Of a DNA stretch of 27,478 nt, positions 10,051 to 25,650 are shown one piece after another. Position 1 is the stretch's first letter. Each line of letters starts with the position of its first letter. The translations under genes were made by a program, and so were the position numbers. The notes under the pieces are model-generated. The model ran no database searches. It was not told the origin of the DNA and saw only the letters and a program-made list of their open reading frames with translations. This stretch comes from a virus, in IMG/VR virus record IMGVR_UViG_3300027241_000176, positions 1-27,478 of that record, one strand, 5' to 3'.

Positions 10051-10350
10051 ATGACACAAGAACAGCATAAAGCACAAGACGAGATTACACGCCTTAAAGG
10101 TCCTGGCAAATACAATGTTATCATGCTAAATGATGACTCAACGCCAATGGACTTTGTGGTTCAGGTATTGATTGGTATATTTAATAAAGATTTAGAAGTA
10201 GCCAAACATCTTACGCTGGAGATTCATGAAAAAGGCCGCAGTATTGTTGGTACATATATGTTTGAGATTGCTGAACAAAAATGTGTTGAAACCATTAGCG
10301 CCGCCCGCAGTGCAGGCTTTCCGCTAAGTGTTACTATCGAGGAAACATGA
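10051..10350 (+). CDS. clpS: ClpS-like adaptor (N-recognin)
   Basis: 99 residues. The conserved core is LNDDSTPMDFV (residues 26-36), with Asp28 and Asp29 matching the residues that hold the N-terminal amino group, and His59 in the HEKG motif; the ending VGTYMFEIAEQK is typical. ClpS normally delivers N-degron substrates to ClpA-ClpP. No ClpA is in this window, so it may use host ClpA or redirect it; by holding ClpA it could also free ClpP for ClpX. Start ATG 10051 follows AAAGG. Its stop overlaps the next start (ATGA). Confidence 0.93.
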   Translation: MTQEQHKAQDEITRLKGPGKYNVIMLNDDSTPMDFVVQVLIGIFNKDLEVAKHLTLEIHEKGRSIVGTYMFEIAEQKCVETISAARSAGFPLSVTIEET

Positions 10351-10760
10351 TTGTAGGTTTTACTGCCAGCGCCTTTGACTTGCTACATGCGGGTCATATT
10401 CAGATGTTGCGTGAAGCAAAAGAACAATGTGATTATCTTATAGTTGGGTTACAACTAGATCCTGCTTTGGCTAGAGAAACAAAAAATTCCCCCATTCAAA
10501 CTGTTGTAGAGCGTTACACGCAATTACACGCTGTGAGTTATGTTGACGAAATAATCCCTTACGTGAGTGAACGAGATCTAGAAGACATCTTGACAATGTA
10601 TCATATTGATGTTAGAATACTAGGTGAAGAATATAGAGATAAGGATTTTACAGGCAAAGATATTTGCCGTAAACGTGGAATACAGCTCTATTTTAACAAA
10701 CGTGACCATAGATTCAGTAGCAGTGATTTAAGAAAGCGTGTTGCTGACAACGAAAGATAA
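10347..10760 (+). CDS. cytidylyltransferase-like nucleotidyltransferase
   Basis: 137 residues. The HxGH signature is HAGH at residues 14-17, after the typical FTASAFDLLHAGH strand. The late SSSDLRKRV matches the ISSTxLR-type motif of the family. The closest functional types are glycerol-3-phosphate cytidylyltransferase (TagD) and the nucleotidyltransferase half of HldE. It would join CTP or ATP to a phosphorylated sugar or polyol. ATGA coupling to clpS may be only a packing effect. Together with KdsA and KdsB downstream it suggests activated-sugar synthesis. Confidence 0.85.
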   Translation: MIVGFTASAFDLLHAGHIQMLREAKEQCDYLIVGLQLDPALARETKNSPIQTVVERYTQLHAVSYVDEIIPYVSERDLEDILTMYHIDVRILGEEYRDKDFTGKDICRKRGIQLYFNKRDHRFSSSDLRKRVADNER

Positions 10761-16313: not shown

Positions 16314-17300
16314 ATGAGTAAAGCAGGCCTTATACCCAAGATAGCAGATAGTATTCGTAGTGCAGAAACACAAGAGGATAAACTTGCTATTTTGTCAAAA
16401 TATCATAATGAAACTTTAATTAAGCGTATATTAAAATATGCTTATAATCCTATGATTGACTTTGGATTGTCCAATTTCACTCCACGTTCCATGGGCAAAG
16501 AACATGGAATGGGCATGAGTAAATTCATGCATATACTTGAGGAAATAATTGAAGGAAAATTCGATTATAAAGAATCAATGTTCGCCACAAATCTAGCATT
16601 GGGGCATATGAATGACGAAGAAGCCACTATCTTTGTCGGTATACTGCGCAAGGATCTTGATTGGGGTCTTGAGATTGAAACTATTAATAAGGTTTGGGAA
16701 AACTTAGTTCACGAGTACCCAGTGCAAATAGCAACAGAAGCGACCCCAGAACTTCTTTCTAAGTTAGAATTTCCATGTGTTGTCCAACATATGTCGTCTG
16801 GTATACGTGTTAGCATCATAGTAAAGAACGATGAAGTAAAATTTAAAGACAAGCATGGAAACAACTTGCCCTTCTTTGATGATCTAGCACCACAATTTCA
16901 GGAACTTGCACAATTTGGATCAGTAGTATTTGACGGACACGCATTGCTGGTAGACGATAAAAATGTTTCTATAGGTGCAACAGATCAACAGATAATAGCA
17001 CGTGAAGGCGGCAAGCTAAAGTTTATGTTATGGGATCTAATACGCTATGATGGTTTCATTCAGGGCGCTGATACACGTTTGGGCTACAACTGGAGATACA
17101 ACGGTATTGAACACATGATGCTTTTGACTGCTGGTAAAGTTGAAGATCCGTGCTTCTTACTACCAACTTCACATCCAGTGAAAATACCTGAACACGCTAT
17201 GGGATTTGTGGAAAAGATAAACTCACCAGTGGTAATAAAATCACTGGCAAATACATGGGGCGGTGGCTATACCACTCAAGAGTTAATTGTTCGTAAGTAA
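16314..17300 (+). CDS. T4 DNA-ligase-like protein lacking the catalytic lysine
   Basis: 328 residues from ATG 16314, seven bases after GGAG. Residues 1-150 match the T4 gp30 N-terminal domain in style (LAILSKY...LIKRILKYAY; ILRKDLDWGLEIETINKVW). Residues ~151-285 resemble its nucleotidyltransferase domain (KFMLWDLIRYDG, TRLGYNWRYNGIEHM). Where ligases have KxDG with the adenylated lysine, this protein has MSSG (Met160-Gly163). Motif III reads FDGHAL instead of DGEL. The EGIILK-type motif is not evident and the C-terminal OB domain seems absent (gp30 has 487 residues). It is therefore probably unable to ligate and may be a nucleic-acid-binding pseudoenzyme. Its 3' end overlaps that of the convergent radical SAM gene by 18 bases. 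Confidence 0.75.
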   Translation: MSKAGLIPKIADSIRSAETQEDKLAILSKYHNETLIKRILKYAYNPMIDFGLSNFTPRSMGKEHGMGMSKFMHILEEIIEGKFDYKESMFATNLALGHMNDEEATIFVGILRKDLDWGLEIETINKVWENLVHEYPVQIATEATPELLSKLEFPCVVQHMSSGIRVSIIVKNDEVKFKDKHGNNLPFFDDLAPQFQELAQFGSVVFDGHALLVDDKNVSIGATDQQIIAREGGKLKFMLWDLIRYDGFIQGADTRLGYNWRYNGIEHMMLLTAGKVEDPCFLLPTSHPVKIPEHAMGFVEKINSPVVIKSLANTWGGGYTTQELIVRK

Positions 17301-18140
17301 ATCAAAGCTAGCCTTACCAAACTTTGTTCCTTTAATATTACACTTAGCACATACGCCCTTGCGTTCACCCAATGCTAACCCAGCACGAACAAACTGCATT
17401 TTCTTACTGTTCCAACAACCACTAATACCAATCTCATTAATATTGCCAAAGTTGCCAGCTTCACGATGCCAGTCATTACAGCACAGTGTCATATTACCAT
17501 TCCAGTCAATGAATGTTTTATAGAACGGAAGGTAACACTGATTCTGTACGCCAGTGCCGCCCATTGTGCCTGCACGATTGTTAAAGCCATACTCAGCAAT
17601 AAGTTCAGCAGCATTGCCATTGTCATAATGCGCCCGTAGTCTCCAGCGACCTGGCAACATCTGCATTTTACGCTCACGCTCAGTGTATTGTTCTTCACCA
17701 TCGTAGCAATCAATAGTAAGCATGTCAAGTCCAGCAGCGTATAGTTTTTGCGTATAGTCCATATCCATGTCAATCAGTCTATCGCCGTTGCTGGTGATCT
17801 CAATATACAATCCAGCGTAAGTGTTTAGTGTTTCCACAATCTCAAGTAATTGCGGATGTGTATGTGGTTCACCAAAGCCAGTAATATGTATATCACCACG
17901 CCATTCAGCCGCACGCAATTGTTCAGTCAACGCACGCACTGTTTCCAGCGTCATGAATAGTTTTTGGTTAGGATATACCTCTGGATCATGTCGTGGACAA
18001 AAGCTACAAGTTCTGTTACACAGTTCTGTAATGTTTATTTCCACAGTTGCCAGTCCAGGCAGTGTACTATTGTAGATGTCAGCAGCACTATGTTGTGCTG
18101 CACGACTGTCAATATGTCCAGTTACGCTAAAGGTCGTCAT
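17283..18140 (-). CDS. radical SAM protein with SPASM-type C-terminal domain
   Basis: 285 residues. The [4Fe-4S]-binding motif CNRTCSFC (CX3CX2C) lies at residues ~40-47, followed by the GFGEP motif and the ITSNGD strand. The C-terminal third holds the SPASM pattern: CYLPFYKTFIDWNGNMTLCCND and a later CAKCNIKG, for an auxiliary iron-sulphur cluster. SPASM proteins usually modify peptides or proteins, sometimes sugars. It is the last gene of the minus-strand operon and the only one with both domains fused. ATG overlaps the preceding stop (TAATG). No precursor peptide is evident. Confidence 0.88.
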   Translation of the reverse strand: MTTFSVTGHIDSRAAQHSAADIYNSTLPGLATVEINITELCNRTCSFCPRHDPEVYPNQKLFMTLETVRALTEQLRAAEWRGDIHITGFGEPHTHPQLLEIVETLNTYAGLYIEITSNGDRLIDMDMDYTQKLYAAGLDMLTIDCYDGEEQYTERERKMQMLPGRWRLRAHYDNGNAAELIAEYGFNNRAGTMGGTGVQNQCYLPFYKTFIDWNGNMTLCCNDWHREAGNFGNINEIGISGCWNSKKMQFVRAGLALGERKGVCAKCNIKGTKFGKASFDLLTNN

Positions 18141-18544
18141 TAGTCAAGCCGTGAGTTTGTGGTTTCTTTTCCTGTTATTTCGTCAATATATACTCCACAT
18201 TCTTCCATGCACAATGGTGCCTTTGTTTCTTTCTCCCAGCCATCTAACCATAGATGAGTCCAATATATTTCATGGTCAATTATTTCATCCAGGTCATGAA
18301 ATTCTAAATTATTCCAATTTGGATCTTCCGCCTCTAGCTTTGACATAATAGGATCTGACTTATAAAGATATGTTGAATGATTAGCATAATCTTTATCTTT
18401 GTCAAATCTTGCATCCCATGCGTTTGCATAGTAGCAGCATGGCCATACTCTACCATCGCTAGTTATTTCAAACTCACGCTTATCAAGACTATGAGTTATA
18501 CATTCTACTCTGCAAGTCTTGGGATCTTTTTTACGAAACTTCAT
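18140..18544 (-). CDS. stand-alone SPASM-type iron-sulphur protein (pair 1)
   Basis: 134 residues without a radical SAM core. Cysteines: CRVEC near residues 11-15, WPCC in SDGRVWPCCYYANAW, and CMEECG near the C terminus. This resembles the C-terminal part of SPASM radical SAM enzymes. Its ATG overlaps the stop of the core gene at 18541 by four bases (ATGA), so the two are translationally coupled and probably form one enzyme. Compare the same arrangement at 19222/19587 and 20252/20568. Confidence 0.8.
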   Translation of the reverse strand: MKFRKKDPKTCRVECITHSLDKREFEITSDGRVWPCCYYANAWDARFDKDKDYANHSTYLYKSDPIMSKLEAEDPNWNNLEFHDLDEIIDHEIYWTHLWLDGWEKETKAPLCMEECGVYIDEITGKETTNSRLD

Positions 18545-19212
18545 GGTACAATTTCTCCGTCCAATTCTTCTATTAATTTATATGCTTGTTTTTTGTTTTC
18601 GTCACTAATTTTTCCAAACTCTCTTGCATTAAATTTGAAAAAGACACCGCAATCTATCTTGTCTGCCATCTTCTTGGCTATGGGTATTTGATGCCAATTC
18701 CATTCAAATACAATAAAATGCCATTCACCACTTCCGCCACTATTAAAATACGTGGTCATGTTGTCCATCGCACGTTGCCAATTTACGCCTTCTCTGTACA
18801 TCCAGTTAGTTTCATGATCTGTGCCATCAATTCCAAACTTAATTCGTATTTTGTTCTTATAGGTGGTCGCAAGGTATTCATACCATTTTGGCTGACGTAA
18901 ACCTCCATTAGTATTAATATGAACTTTATTAGCGTACTGTAGTGTAAAATCAACAAACTCGTCAATTTGTGGATGCATCATAGGATCTCCTAATTCTCCA
19001 CAAAATTGTACGTACCCATTGCGTTCTTTCAAGTATTTACTGGAAGAAATAATACGTTTATATATCTCAAAATCCATATGCGTTGGCTTTAGCCAACTGG
19101 CAGTCTCGCCTGTGTCTTGATCAGTTCTTGCACAACTTCTACATTTTGCTTGACAGTATGTTGTCAACGCAAAATCATAATCAATTTTCATATTGCCTAA
19201 ATTTTGTCTCAT
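18541..19212 (-). CDS. radical SAM core protein (pair 1)
   Basis: Up to 223 residues. CQAKCRSC (CX3CX2C) lies at residues 20-27, then GELGDPMMHPQIDEFVDF (the GGEP-like region) and HINTNGGLR. A later FGIDGTDHETNWMYREGVNW is shared with core 3 almost exactly. The start may be ATG 19212 or ATG 19191 (MKIDYDF, aligned with the starts of the other cores). It ends without a SPASM domain; that domain is encoded by the coupled gene at 18140. Confidence 0.85.
   Translation of the reverse strand: MRQNLGNMKIDYDFALTTYCQAKCRSCARTDQDTGETASWLKPTHMDFEIYKRIISSSKYLKERNGYVQFCGELGDPMMHPQIDEFVDFTLQYANKVHINTNGGLRQPKWYEYLATTYKNKIRIKFGIDGTDHETNWMYREGVNWQRAMDNMTTYFNSGGSGEWHFIVFEWNWHQIPIAKKMADKIDCGVFFKFNAREFGKISDENKKQAYKLIEELDGEIVP
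18756..18837. repeat. 82-bp near-identical patch shared by core genes 1 and 3 (copy A)
   Basis: Differs by one base from 20780-20861 over 82 bases, while the flanking parts of the two genes have clearly diverged. It encodes the conserved FGIDGTD...AMDNM segment of the radical SAM core. Confidence 0.85.
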
Positions 19213-19221
19213 ATTTTACTC

Positions 19222-19587
19222 TTATGTTTTATTCCTGTCACAAAAATGTACACACAGTGCAGGAGGATTTTCGCTATTCCATCCAGTTTCTCCTATATAA
19301 TCACTGAATATAGGATTACTAATTATGTCATCTAAGTTAGTATACAGCGTATTATTCCACTCGGGATTGTTTTTCATTAATTCAGATAATACTTTATCAT
19401 TGTCAAACAATTTTTTATATGGCAATTGATCTTCATATTCATTAGCAGCACTTGCTTTAAACCAAGTACTTACATAATGACCACATGGCCAAACTCTACC
19501 ATCAATGCCTATCTCAAAATACTCTACTGGATCACCTGAATGATTTCTGTGCTGTTTTGCCATACACCATATATCACATTTTGACAT
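19222..19587 (-). CDS. stand-alone SPASM-type iron-sulphur protein (pair 2)
   Basis: 121 residues from the ATG at 19587-19585, which overlaps the stop of the core gene by one base (TAATG); a GTG at 19593 is less likely. Cysteines: CDIWC near the N terminus, DGRVWPCG with only one Cys where its paralogues have two, and LCVHFC near the end. It shares the GWNSENPPALC segment with pair 3. The lost Cys could change the cluster bound. Confidence 0.78.
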   Translation of the reverse strand: MSKCDIWCMAKQHRNHSGDPVEYFEIGIDGRVWPCGHYVSTWFKASAANEYEDQLPYKKLFDNDKVLSELMKNNPEWNNTLYTNLDDIISNPIFSDYIGETGWNSENPPALCVHFCDRNKT

Positions 19588-20243
19588 TAGCACTCTACCT
19601 TATATTTAGCGTCTACTTCGGCCTTATGTTCTGGGGTTATCAAACCGTATGGTTGCGTGTTCCATAAGAAGAAATGTTCATCACATCCTATTTCGTCCAC
19701 CATACGTAAACACTCATCCATCTGATGATAATTGTGTTCAAATACTATAAACTGCCACACTGCTCTACCTGGACTATTGCTGTATGCTCGTAGGTTATCC
19801 ATAGCCCTATACCAGTCCACATCCACTCTATATAGATTATTTACGTGCGCAGTTGTGCCGTCTATACCAAAAACAATAGTTAAACGCTGCCCATAACGTT
19901 CTCCCATCTTTGTATACCAATCAGGACTACGCAAGCCTCCGTTAGTATTAACTATGACTTCTTCAGCATTATTATTAAGACAATATGATATAAAGTCTTC
20001 TACTTTTGGATGCATCATGGGATCACCATATTCACCACAGAATTTCACACTGCGTAGTTTATGTTCTTTCCAGTATATGCTTTTCTGCGTAGTCTTCTTA
20101 AATAGATCAAAGTCAGTATGTTGTAATTTTAGCCATGGTTCAGGGTATCCAGTTTCTTCGTTAGTTCGTGGGCAAGTAGGACACCTTGCCTGACAATAAG
20201 ATGTTAGAGAAAACTCAAGTTTGAATTCCTTTGTTTTTGTCAT
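19587..20243 (-). CDS. radical SAM core protein (pair 2)
   Basis: 218 residues from ATG 20243; an upstream in-frame start at 20282 would overlap the previous gene. CQARCPTC lies at residues 17-24. GEYGDPMMHPKVEDFISYC, VNTNGGLRSPDWYT and VFGIDGTT follow in the same order as in cores 1 and 3. It is the most diverged of the three cores (NNLYRVDVDWYRAMDN instead of NWMYREGVNWQRAMDN). No SPASM domain in the same chain. Confidence 0.85.
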   Translation of the reverse strand: MTKTKEFKLEFSLTSYCQARCPTCPRTNEETGYPEPWLKLQHTDFDLFKKTTQKSIYWKEHKLRSVKFCGEYGDPMMHPKVEDFISYCLNNNAEEVIVNTNGGLRSPDWYTKMGERYGQRLTIVFGIDGTTAHVNNLYRVDVDWYRAMDNLRAYSNSPGRAVWQFIVFEHNYHQMDECLRMVDEIGCDEHFFLWNTQPYGLITPEHKAEVDAKYKVEC

Positions 20244-20251
20244 TATAATAT

Positions 20252-20578
20252 CTATTCTATTTCTCCACAGCGTGATACACATAGTGGCGGGGGATTGTCG
20301 CTATCCCACCCAGTGTTCCATATATATTCACGGAATATTTCATGTGAAGTTATCTCATCCATGGTATGATGGTTTAAGCTATTCCAATTGGGGTCTTGAC
20401 GAAATAACTCATAAAGTTTTTCATCCTCACGTTGCTCATCATAATCTTCGTCTTGTGTTGGATCACCCCATACATTAGCATAGTTACAGCATGGCCAAAC
20501 CCTGCCGTTAATGTCTATGTCATAGCATCTTGCGTTTAGAATCTTGTCAAAGGCAAAACAATCTATCTTACATTTCAT
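20252..20578 (-). CDS. stand-alone SPASM-type iron-sulphur protein (pair 3)
   Basis: 108 residues. ATG lies inside the end of the core gene (11-base overlap). Cysteines: CKIDC (3-7), a Cys before YDIDINGRVWPCCNYANVW, and LCVSRC near the end, after GWDSDNPPP. Same layout as the other two stand-alone SPASM proteins. It probably supplies the auxiliary cluster or substrate domain of core 3. Confidence 0.8.
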   Translation of the reverse strand: MKCKIDCFAFDKILNARCYDIDINGRVWPCCNYANVWGDPTQDEDYDEQREDEKLYELFRQDPNWNSLNHHTMDEITSHEIFREYIWNTGWDSDNPPPLCVSRCGEIE

Positions 20579-21224
20579 AATTTAATTCTTTCAAGATGTT
20601 ATTTGCTGAATACATATCAGAATCTGACATTTTGCCTTTACCGCCTCTACTATTAAAAATAAATTCTATCGGCAAATCAAATTCACTTGCCATATCATAT
20701 GCTTGTTTTATCTGGTGTATGTTCCATGGGAATATTATAAACTGCCACGTACAACTACCGCCAGCCGCATGAAAAGCCATCATGTTGTCCATCGCACGTT
20801 GCCAATTTACGCCTTCTCTGTACATCCAGTTAGTTTCACGATCTGTGCCATCAATTCCAAAAACAATGGCTAAGTCATCTTTATATCTTAACCCCATTCT
20901 TGTATACCAATCAGGATTACGCAATGCTCCATTTGTACTTATTAATACAGCAATATAATGTTTTTTATAATCGTCAAGTATCAGACTAACAAAGTCCTCA
21001 ATTTGTGGGTGCATCATAGGATCACCAACTTCACCGCACAATTTTATATATGGAGTTTTATTCTTATTAAAGTCAATACCAGAAAGTATACGTTTAAAAG
21101 TTTCAACAGGCATATGTTCTTGCTTTAAATCAGCCCTTGTCTCACCATCATCACCTATTCGTTGACAGCTATAACACTTTGCTTGGCAAAATGTAGTTAT
21201 AGAAAATTCATATCCTGCTTTCAT
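20568..21224 (-). CDS. radical SAM core protein (pair 3)
   Basis: 218 residues from ATG 21224, with AAGG upstream. A longer frame to 21335 exists, but its extra part reads out of frame over a decayed SPASM remnant and lacks a binding site. CQAKCYSC lies at residues 13-20, then GEVGDPMMHPQIEDFVS, ISTNGALRNPDWYT and VFGIDGTDRETNWMYREG. First intact gene of the minus-strand operon. Confidence 0.85.
   Translation of the reverse strand: MKAGYEFSITTFCQAKCYSCQRIGDDGETRADLKQEHMPVETFKRILSGIDFNKNKTPYIKLCGEVGDPMMHPQIEDFVSLILDDYKKHYIAVLISTNGALRNPDWYTRMGLRYKDDLAIVFGIDGTDRETNWMYREGVNWQRAMDNMMAFHAAGGSCTWQFIIFPWNIHQIKQAYDMASEFDLPIEFIFNSRGGKGKMSDSDMYSANNILKELNYEM
20780..20861. repeat. 82-bp near-identical patch (copy B)
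   Basis: 81 of 82 bases equal 18756-18837. See copy A. Confidence 0.85.
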
Positions 21225-21225
21225 A

Positions 21226-21327
21226 TCATTCTGCCTTAAAAATAGGAACATCATCGTTATTGATACACAACTTGCACAGTCCTGCCATATCACCATTATT
21301 CCAGCCTGGAAACCATACTTTATGCCA
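21226..21327 (-). pseudogene. remnant of a fourth SPASM gene
   Basis: The minus-strand frame ending at TGA 21228-21226 reads VWFPGWNNGDMAGLCKLC and ends KAE. It aligns with the C terminus of the pair 3 SPASM protein (IWNTGWDSDNPPPLCVSRC). Upstream it meets a stop (TAG at 21330-21328) with no start codon, so only the last ~33 codons are left. Its stop lies just before the ATG of core 3, the same tight spacing as in the intact units. The array once had at least one more unit, cut off at the present operon promoter. Confidence 0.7.
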
Positions 21328-21355: not shown

Positions 21356-21363
21356 TATTTATC
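21356..21363 (-). promoter_or_regulatory. late-type promoter of the radical SAM operon
   Basis: On the minus strand GATAAATA followed by ATAAT. The GATAAATA form is also seen at 16261-16268 (minus) and 24372 (plus). Transcription would begin about 21350 and run through the SPASM remnant into core 3. Confidence 0.6.
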
Positions 21364-24999: not shown

Positions 25000-25013
25000 A
25001 ATGTGTCTACTTG

Positions 25014-25021
25014 TATAAATA
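25014..25021 (+). promoter_or_regulatory. T4-type late promoter before the HNH gene
   Basis: TATAAATA, then CATAC and AAGGAG, 17 bases before ATG 25039. It gives the inserted endonuclease its own expression. Confidence 0.65.
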
Positions 25022-25038
25022 CATACAAGGAGACAATT

Positions 25039-25650
25039 ATGGACAACTTATGTGATTACGGGTGCCAAGCACCAGCAAAATATACTCTTAAAAATGGCAA
25101 GCAATGTTGTAACAAAACATATCAACAATGCCCTGCTATAAAAGAAAAGAATAGACAGGGAACAAAAAAAGCGTATATAGACGGAGTACGTAGTGTAGCA
25201 TGGACATCGGAACATCGGAAAAAGAGTTCAGACACACGCAAACAACAAGCAATCGACAATTTTCTAATAGACGGATCAACACTATCCAATCATGCTGTTA
25301 AAAACAGATTGTGTGAGTTGGGAGTACCACAGTGCTGTAAAGAGTGTGGAATAGACACTTGGAATGGGAAAACGATACCACTTGAACTAGATCATATAAA
25401 TGGTAAAAGCAAGGACAACCGTCTAGATAATCTAAGATTGCTTTGTCCCAACTGCCACAGTTTAACCGACACGTGGAGGGGCAAAAATATAAACACTGGA
25501 AAAATTAAAGTTTCTGACAATGAGTTGTTGACAGCATACGATAAAACTGCTAATATAAGACAAACATTAATAGAAGTAGGGTTAGCGCCAAAAGGCGGAA
25601 ATTATTCCAGAGTTAAAAAGTTAATAAGCGGGCGTGGCGAAATTGGTTGA
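25039..25650 (+). CDS. HNH homing endonuclease
   Basis: 203 residues from ATG 25039, after AAGGAG. Zinc cysteines lie in CCKEC (99-103) and CPNC (136-139). The HNH core is LELDHINGKSKDNRLDNL with His119, then Asn131 and His140. An N-terminal cysteine-rich part (CDYGCQAPA) may bind a second zinc. The basic C-terminal part includes a helix-turn-helix-like TANIRQTLIEVGL. Such enzymes cut alleles without the element so that it is copied in. The last seven codons and the stop read through the first 23 bases of tRNA-Leu. The gene lies between the halves of a broken tRNA. Confidence 0.9.
   Translation: MDNLCDYGCQAPAKYTLKNGKQCCNKTYQQCPAIKEKNRQGTKKAYIDGVRSVAWTSEHRKKSSDTRKQQAIDNFLIDGSTLSNHAVKNRLCELGVPQCCKECGIDTWNGKTIPLELDHINGKSKDNRLDNLRLLCPNCHSLTDTWRGKNINTGKIKVSDNELLTAYDKTANIRQTLIEVGLAPKGGNYSRVKKLISGRGEIG

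Follow-up and report, generated by a model that had tools for sequence, protein, structure and literature searches.

A phage DNA fragment of 27,478 nucleotides (IMG/VR record IMGVR_UViG_3300027241_000176; hereafter the window) carries a gene array in which radical SAM cores (R) are each paired with a small cysteine-rich protein (S). We consider it fairly probable that an R-S pair is one radical SAM enzyme in two polypeptides, that the array is swapped between phages, and that the tailoring of surface structures is its most likely role. Core and auxiliary subunits that appear separable in this way contrast with the solved relatives and the cellular matches, all of which are fused in one chain. 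No description of a stand-alone SPASM domain or of a split radical SAM-SPASM enzyme was found in the open-access literature. Removal of the auxiliary domain from a single-chain enzyme usually breaks the enzyme, and the role of the SPASM/twitch cluster (electron acceptor, substrate holder or both) is therefore debated. With a naturally separate auxiliary protein and dozens of matched pairs, the domain could be titrated, swapped or mutated alone.

Layout of the operon

The window is a phage fragment in which PHROGs recognise a head maturation protease, a virion structural protein and a DNA ligase. The seven-gene array reported in the preliminary description, with three pairs of a core and a small-domain gene followed by a fused gene, is present on the minus strand with the following features:

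21356-21363, minus strand: GATAAATA, T4-type late promoter-like motif before the operon (motif match only; one mismatch against TATAAATA)
21226-21327, minus strand: apparent stump of an additional S gene, since lost, with its 33 terminal codons (WHKVWFPGWNNGDMAGLCKLCINNDDVPIFKAE, then the stop, 1 base before the ATG of R1)
20568-21224, minus strand: R1, radical SAM core with CX3CX2C, 218 aa (PF04055, E 5e-11; R family alignment)
20252-20578, minus strand: S1, putative free-standing auxiliary-cluster (twitch/SPASM-like) domain, 108 aa (11-base overlap with the end of R1)
19587-20243, minus strand: R2, radical SAM core, 218 aa (PF04055, E 7e-5, below the cut-off; phrog_21308, E 3e-19; 40% identity to R1)
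19222-19587, minus strand: S2, putative auxiliary-cluster domain, 121 aa, or 123 from an upstream GTG (homology to S1 and S3; no Pfam match)
18541-19212, minus strand: R3, radical SAM core, 223 aa (PF04055, E 2e-9; orthologue of R3 in the related contig L003, tree support 100/99)
18140-18544, minus strand: S3, putative auxiliary-cluster domain, 134 aa (ATGA overlap with R3)
17283-18140, minus strand: F4, fused radical SAM-SPASM/twitch enzyme, 285 aa (PF04055 and PF13186 above cut-off; BtrN nearest solved relative)

In the Pfam search for the radical SAM domain, R1, R3 and F4 pass the PF04055 cut-off and R2 falls below it. The three cores share 40-52% mutual identity, while S1-S3 align with each other at 39-44% identity and also with the C-terminal domain of fused relatives. 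The interval originally given for the array (17283-21327) holds the seven genes and additionally takes in the 33-aa pseudogene stump. The late-type promoter placed before the operon stands as a motif but not as an exact consensus, of which eight copies were found on the other strand of the window. All genes in the operon overlap or lie about 10 bp apart, so that no precursor gene fits between them; in agreement with the earlier claim, no RiPP precursor gene was detected in the operon, and inspection by eye revealed no conserved small partner at related loci. The array thus departs from RiPP maturases, for which a precursor peptide gene nearby is expected. Elsewhere in the window, a heptose adenylyltransferase-like gene (10347-10760; phrog_7878) may have a sugar-nucleotide function in the same phage.

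Conservation of the split and matching of partners

Scans of IMG/VR with the R alignment yielded 44 relatives and then more than 558, 80 of which were kept, and identical sequences were removed before split cores were counted. All 73 distinct split cores in IMG/VR lie directly upstream of an S gene, with stop-to-start overlaps of 1-17 bases in most of the 73 measured pairs (most commonly 4, 11 and 8 bases). Twenty-three lower-scoring relatives have a long C-terminal tail, and an S domain is detectable in eight of them. A search of 18 long viral contigs over their full length showed a 1:1 correspondence of split cores with S genes and no clear orphan, as far as the core and S lists were compared. 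In one relative, an 88-aa frame sits between R and S of a single pair (L012:6615-6881). Outside viruses, a scan with two short motifs detected no split core in 84,980 cellular genomes; the sole match in the cellular genome collection is a MAG, and all of its homologues are fused. A tblastn search with four other R types against cultured phages returned only the Pelagibacter phage Mosig and fused Campylobacter phage enzymes.

The proposed search of marine viral contigs for the same split pairs thus found the split conserved in many of them. It had been noted that the splits might be frameshift errors absent in relatives, or equally pseudogenes of ordinary fused enzymes, and one-chain homologues do exist. 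The probability of such an origin is practically negligible: the relatives keep the split, 71 distinct split cores form one clade, starts and stops are intact, and pairs are nested as R-R'-S'-S, one complete pair within another. Among close pairs, dN/dS values are well below 1 (about 0.05-0.4 in R and S alike), which shows purifying selection on both genes as judged from their substitution patterns. Programmed frameshifting to a fusion was also considered and is ruled out as the general case, because the nested arrays place a whole other pair between R and S.

The 71 split cores form a single group (support 94/97) that is separate from 16 fused R-S enzymes, and the main split clade therefore has a single origin; two more split cores group with S-R fusions. 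Natural fusions occur in both orders, R-S as well as S-R (the latter in L139 and L157). One 512-aa frame, L135:4137-5675, holds two radical SAM cores (two PF04055 stretches), yet only one S gene comes after it.

R and S of a pair evolve as a unit, and their trees mirror each other. The correlation between the two trees was r 0.83 over 85 pairs, compared with a maximum of 0.14 in 2000 permutations. Since this value is inflated by shared descent, partners were also swapped within genomes. Nested double pairs were found at nine loci, and the native assignment (inner with inner, outer with outer) was the best in 13 of 15 within-genome swap tests; of the remaining two, L073 is the L003 phage read on the wrong strand, so that its apparent swap is the native pairing, and in L004 two recent duplicates tie. 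Owing to relatedness among many of the nested arrays, the pairing test comprises about six independent cases. Because the R and S trees of the nested arrays match inner-inner and outer-outer, it is well supported by the phylogeny that the partners act in trans.

The auxiliary domain and its nearest relatives

The small proteins had been described as SPASM-type. They do appear to be cysteine-rich auxiliary domains, but the SPASM assignment does not hold. Against the PF13186 cut-off of 21.5 bits, S1 (15.7) and S3 (16.8) both fall below and S2 gives no match, whereas F4 passes with 43. Moreover, 27 aligned S proteins have four invariant cysteines and a fifth that is nearly invariant, and a true SPASM domain, with seven or eight, is ruled out by this count together with the Pfam score. 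The pattern Cys..PC(C)..CX2-3C is present in 80 of 82 distinct S proteins; one of the two exceptions is cut by the contig end and the other keeps the cysteines. The radical SAM motif CX3CX2C was found in all 78 distinct cores examined. A twitch domain holds one auxiliary cluster and a SPASM domain typically two, both being C-terminal extensions of the core (PMC9012708). The S pattern agrees with the three or four cysteines and one cluster of a twitch domain, and four invariant cysteines would provide for one cluster. Judged by cysteine layout, S fits a free-standing twitch domain (one predicted auxiliary cluster) better than SPASM (two).

The known radical SAM-SPASM/twitch enzymes (anSME, SkfB, SuiB, PqqE, MoaA and BtrN) likewise combine a CX3CX2C core with a cysteine-rich auxiliary domain. 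They are single polypeptides, whereas in the array only F4 is fused; the auxiliary domain is here a separate gene product, and it occurs in paired, tandem or nested arrangements. A further family of the same superfamily, NF033640 (N_Twi_rSAM), differs from R/S in being a single chain with an N-terminal twitch domain, and R1 (34.8 bits) and F4 (48.5 bits) miss its cut-off of 170 bits. Two members, L015:10023-11267 (257.7 bits) and L015:7744-8958 (230 bits), adjoin split pairs. They are the two scored genes in a run of four NF033640-like twitch radical SAM genes that adjoins a split pair and is interspersed with SGNH-like hydrolases (L015:7744-12558).

The question whether S folds as SPASM received a divided answer: the AlphaFold model of S1 is confident (pLDDT 88.8), but this model alone gave no structural match in Foldseek or VIA. 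Such a result would be unsurprising for a small metal-dependent domain, and the predicted fold is unclassified. The S profile gave chance matches only against PDB sequences. In the model of a fused relative (L029:4924-5967), confidence is high for the core and for the beginning of the cysteine domain and poor at the C-terminus; residues 201-231 form a disordered linker between core and cysteine domain, which places the split at a flexible joint. Along its length, this model matched SkfB, BlsE, SuiB, anSMEcpe, MoaA and BtrN by Foldseek at TM of about 0.5. By sequence, BlsE, a cytosylglucuronate decarboxylase, is the solved protein nearest to the R profile (E 3e-7), and BtrN, an aminocyclitol dehydrogenase, is nearest to F4 (E 8e-9); F4 resembles this twitch dehydrogenase over most of its length (residues 31-271). 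Both BlsE and BtrN differ from the pairs in being single chains of antibiotic pathways, and the identity is remote.

Based on these features, R would bind a SAM-cleaving [4Fe-4S] cluster through CX3CX2C and generate the 5'-deoxyadenosyl radical. S would be a free-standing twitch-like subunit whose four conserved cysteines hold one auxiliary [4Fe-4S] cluster; it would dock at the site occupied by the C-terminal domain in fused enzymes, accept or relay an electron and perhaps help to hold the substrate. The overlapping stop and start codons would couple synthesis of the two chains at roughly 1:1. Here we infer cluster binding, the heterodimer and the electron role. Alternatively, S could be an independent ferredoxin-like electron carrier that reduces the R cluster from outside the active site. 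Its small size, its own gene and its four-cysteine pattern would suit a carrier of this kind. However, the counterpart of S by homology in fused relatives is their C-terminal auxiliary domain. In addition, coevolution of R with S is seen in each lineage, and partners are specific even inside a single genome, which would be unnecessary for a shared carrier; we regard this alternative as improbable. The two-subunit enzyme, with S as part of the active enzyme, is preferred below.

Variability, neighbourhoods and candidate roles

The window was compared with a relative represented by two independent assemblies (L003 and L005), which differ at 1 of 12,312 compared bases. The array is 45-70% identical between the two phages, while long flanking stretches to either side show 97-100% identity. 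Identity declines gradually at the array edges, and in the rest of the comparable 21 kb it is lowest at about 83%, short accessory stretches excepted. For this one phage pair, the alignment shows the array to be a hypervariable hot spot. The 33-aa stump matches the C-terminus of S1 in L003 (48% over 31 aa, E 2e-5), with an in-frame stop just upstream, and by this similarity it is what remains of one more pair, since lost.

The L003 cores R1 (99/92) and R3 (100/99) are positional orthologues of their namesakes in the window, whose R2 clusters with cores of L097 and L099 (98/85), the L003 R2 being next. On these groupings, the array is made up of old distinct lineages and did not arise by recent tandem duplication. 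The earlier suggestion that the enzymes work on related substrates is thus unproven: with three old paralogous lineages, two of which have positional orthologues in the sister phage, the three cores probably do different jobs. The array would then combine several two-part enzymes of different lineages with one fused enzyme resembling BtrN, and it would be exchanged as a whole by recombination between near-identical phages.

Among 107 proteins, mostly neighbours of pairs, Pfam identified radical SAM (14), Lipase_3 (7), SPASM (5), peroxiredoxin (4), SNase (3) and Asp/Arg hydroxylase (3) domains, and SGNH-like hydrolases flank several pairs. The closest cultured parallel is Pelagibacter phage Mosig EXVC030M, in which the gene for a 211-aa core overlaps a downstream 112-aa gene whose product has the same arrangement of cysteines (Mosig_00084/00085). 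These genes, annotated as 'molybdenum cofactor biosynthesis enzyme' and 'hypothetical protein', are far in sequence from the pairs of the window, and their split is kept in three wild relatives. Their neighbours include DegT aminotransferase, carbamoyltransferase, methyltransferase and SGNH-like genes. Mosig, growing on Pelagibacter HTCC1062, offers one cultured phage as an entry point. In the accessible part of one study, radical SAM cassettes come and go among glycosyltransferases in the variable host-recognition cluster of pelagimyophages (PMC7029224); as far as the descriptions can be compared, these cassettes in a hypervariable island are like the array of the window. The accessible part of another (PMC5332604) describes a T4-like virus whose genome has 12 radical SAM genes. 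The split is not mentioned in those parts of either text, nor is a partner domain or a function in those of PMC7029224.

In the preferred two-subunit reading, the pairs would work with oxygenases, SGNH/lipase-like hydrolases and methyltransferases on a surface glycan or on a virion or host protein. The chemistry would be oxidation or epimerisation of an envelope glycan of the host or of a component of the virion, with the effect that recognition by phages, receptors or defences is altered. The arrays appear swappable between marine phages and probably act on something on the host or phage surface. This role, which we read from the variability of the array and its gene context, may prove incorrect. 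As to the target, a surface glycan is our tentative assignment; a virion or host protein is rather unlikely, and so, to the same degree, is a target other than these.

The main rival reading has a protein of the virion or the host as the substrate, modified by residue oxidation, epimerisation or cross-linking as in anSME, EpeE and SuiB, and no glycan as the target. It draws on the solved folds nearest to the fused relative, where SkfB, SuiB, anSMEcpe and EpeE are among the best; as peptide or protein modifiers, SkfB, SuiB and anSME point away from glycans and speak against our favoured explanation. Some pairs, moreover, stand alone without an adjacent glycan gene (e.g., L118, L096 and L037), as expected of a self-sufficient modifier, and those of L038, L041 and L042 have a 420-aa virion-module-like protein on one side and neck/sheath-like genes on the other. 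In L142 and L174, the fusion of a 2OG-oxygenase domain to the core is compatible with the same view. However, the pairs travel with neither a precursor nor a conserved partner protein, other loci such as that of Mosig are clearly glycan islands, and BtrN and BlsE act on an aminocyclitol and a sugar, respectively. On balance, we consider a purely protein-directed role unlikely, although it deserves to be taken seriously. In the two fusions just mentioned (L142:4323-5663 and L174:1146-2528), the 2OG-Fe(II) oxygenase-like domain is N-terminal to the split core and methyltransferase-like genes lie on both sides; that of L142 matches PF13640 at E 0.0013.

A counter-defence or small-molecule system, for example one making a modified nucleotide in the manner of viperin, would leave surface tailoring uninvolved. 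Such a system would suit an accessory and hypervariable island, and viperin is among the sequence and fold neighbours. Nevertheless, the genes around the pairs encode tailoring enzymes, the NCBIfam viperin model is not among the R1 matches at E 0.01 and, to our knowledge, the viperin family has no twitch or SPASM subunit. We hold this explanation to be improbable as well.

Tailoring of surface structures by two-part enzymes would give a testable function to genes that recur, so far unexplained, in the variable islands of abundant marine phages. More speculatively, and in our view less likely than not, the pairs may represent an undescribed and largely viral class of obligate two-subunit radical SAM enzymes, forming a swappable, modular system that remodels surfaces or virions in phage-phage and phage-host competition.

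Two further observations concern neighbouring genes. Amidinotransferase-like proteins recur near radical SAM genes (L131:7189-8247, L044:9274-10287 and L052:7451-8512), a label annotated only in Campylobacter phage F379 and assigned by eye in the others. In the window, an HNH endonuclease gene (25003-25650; phrog_14736) occupies a stretch without match in the otherwise near-identical relative contig, which is probably a recent homing insertion or loss.
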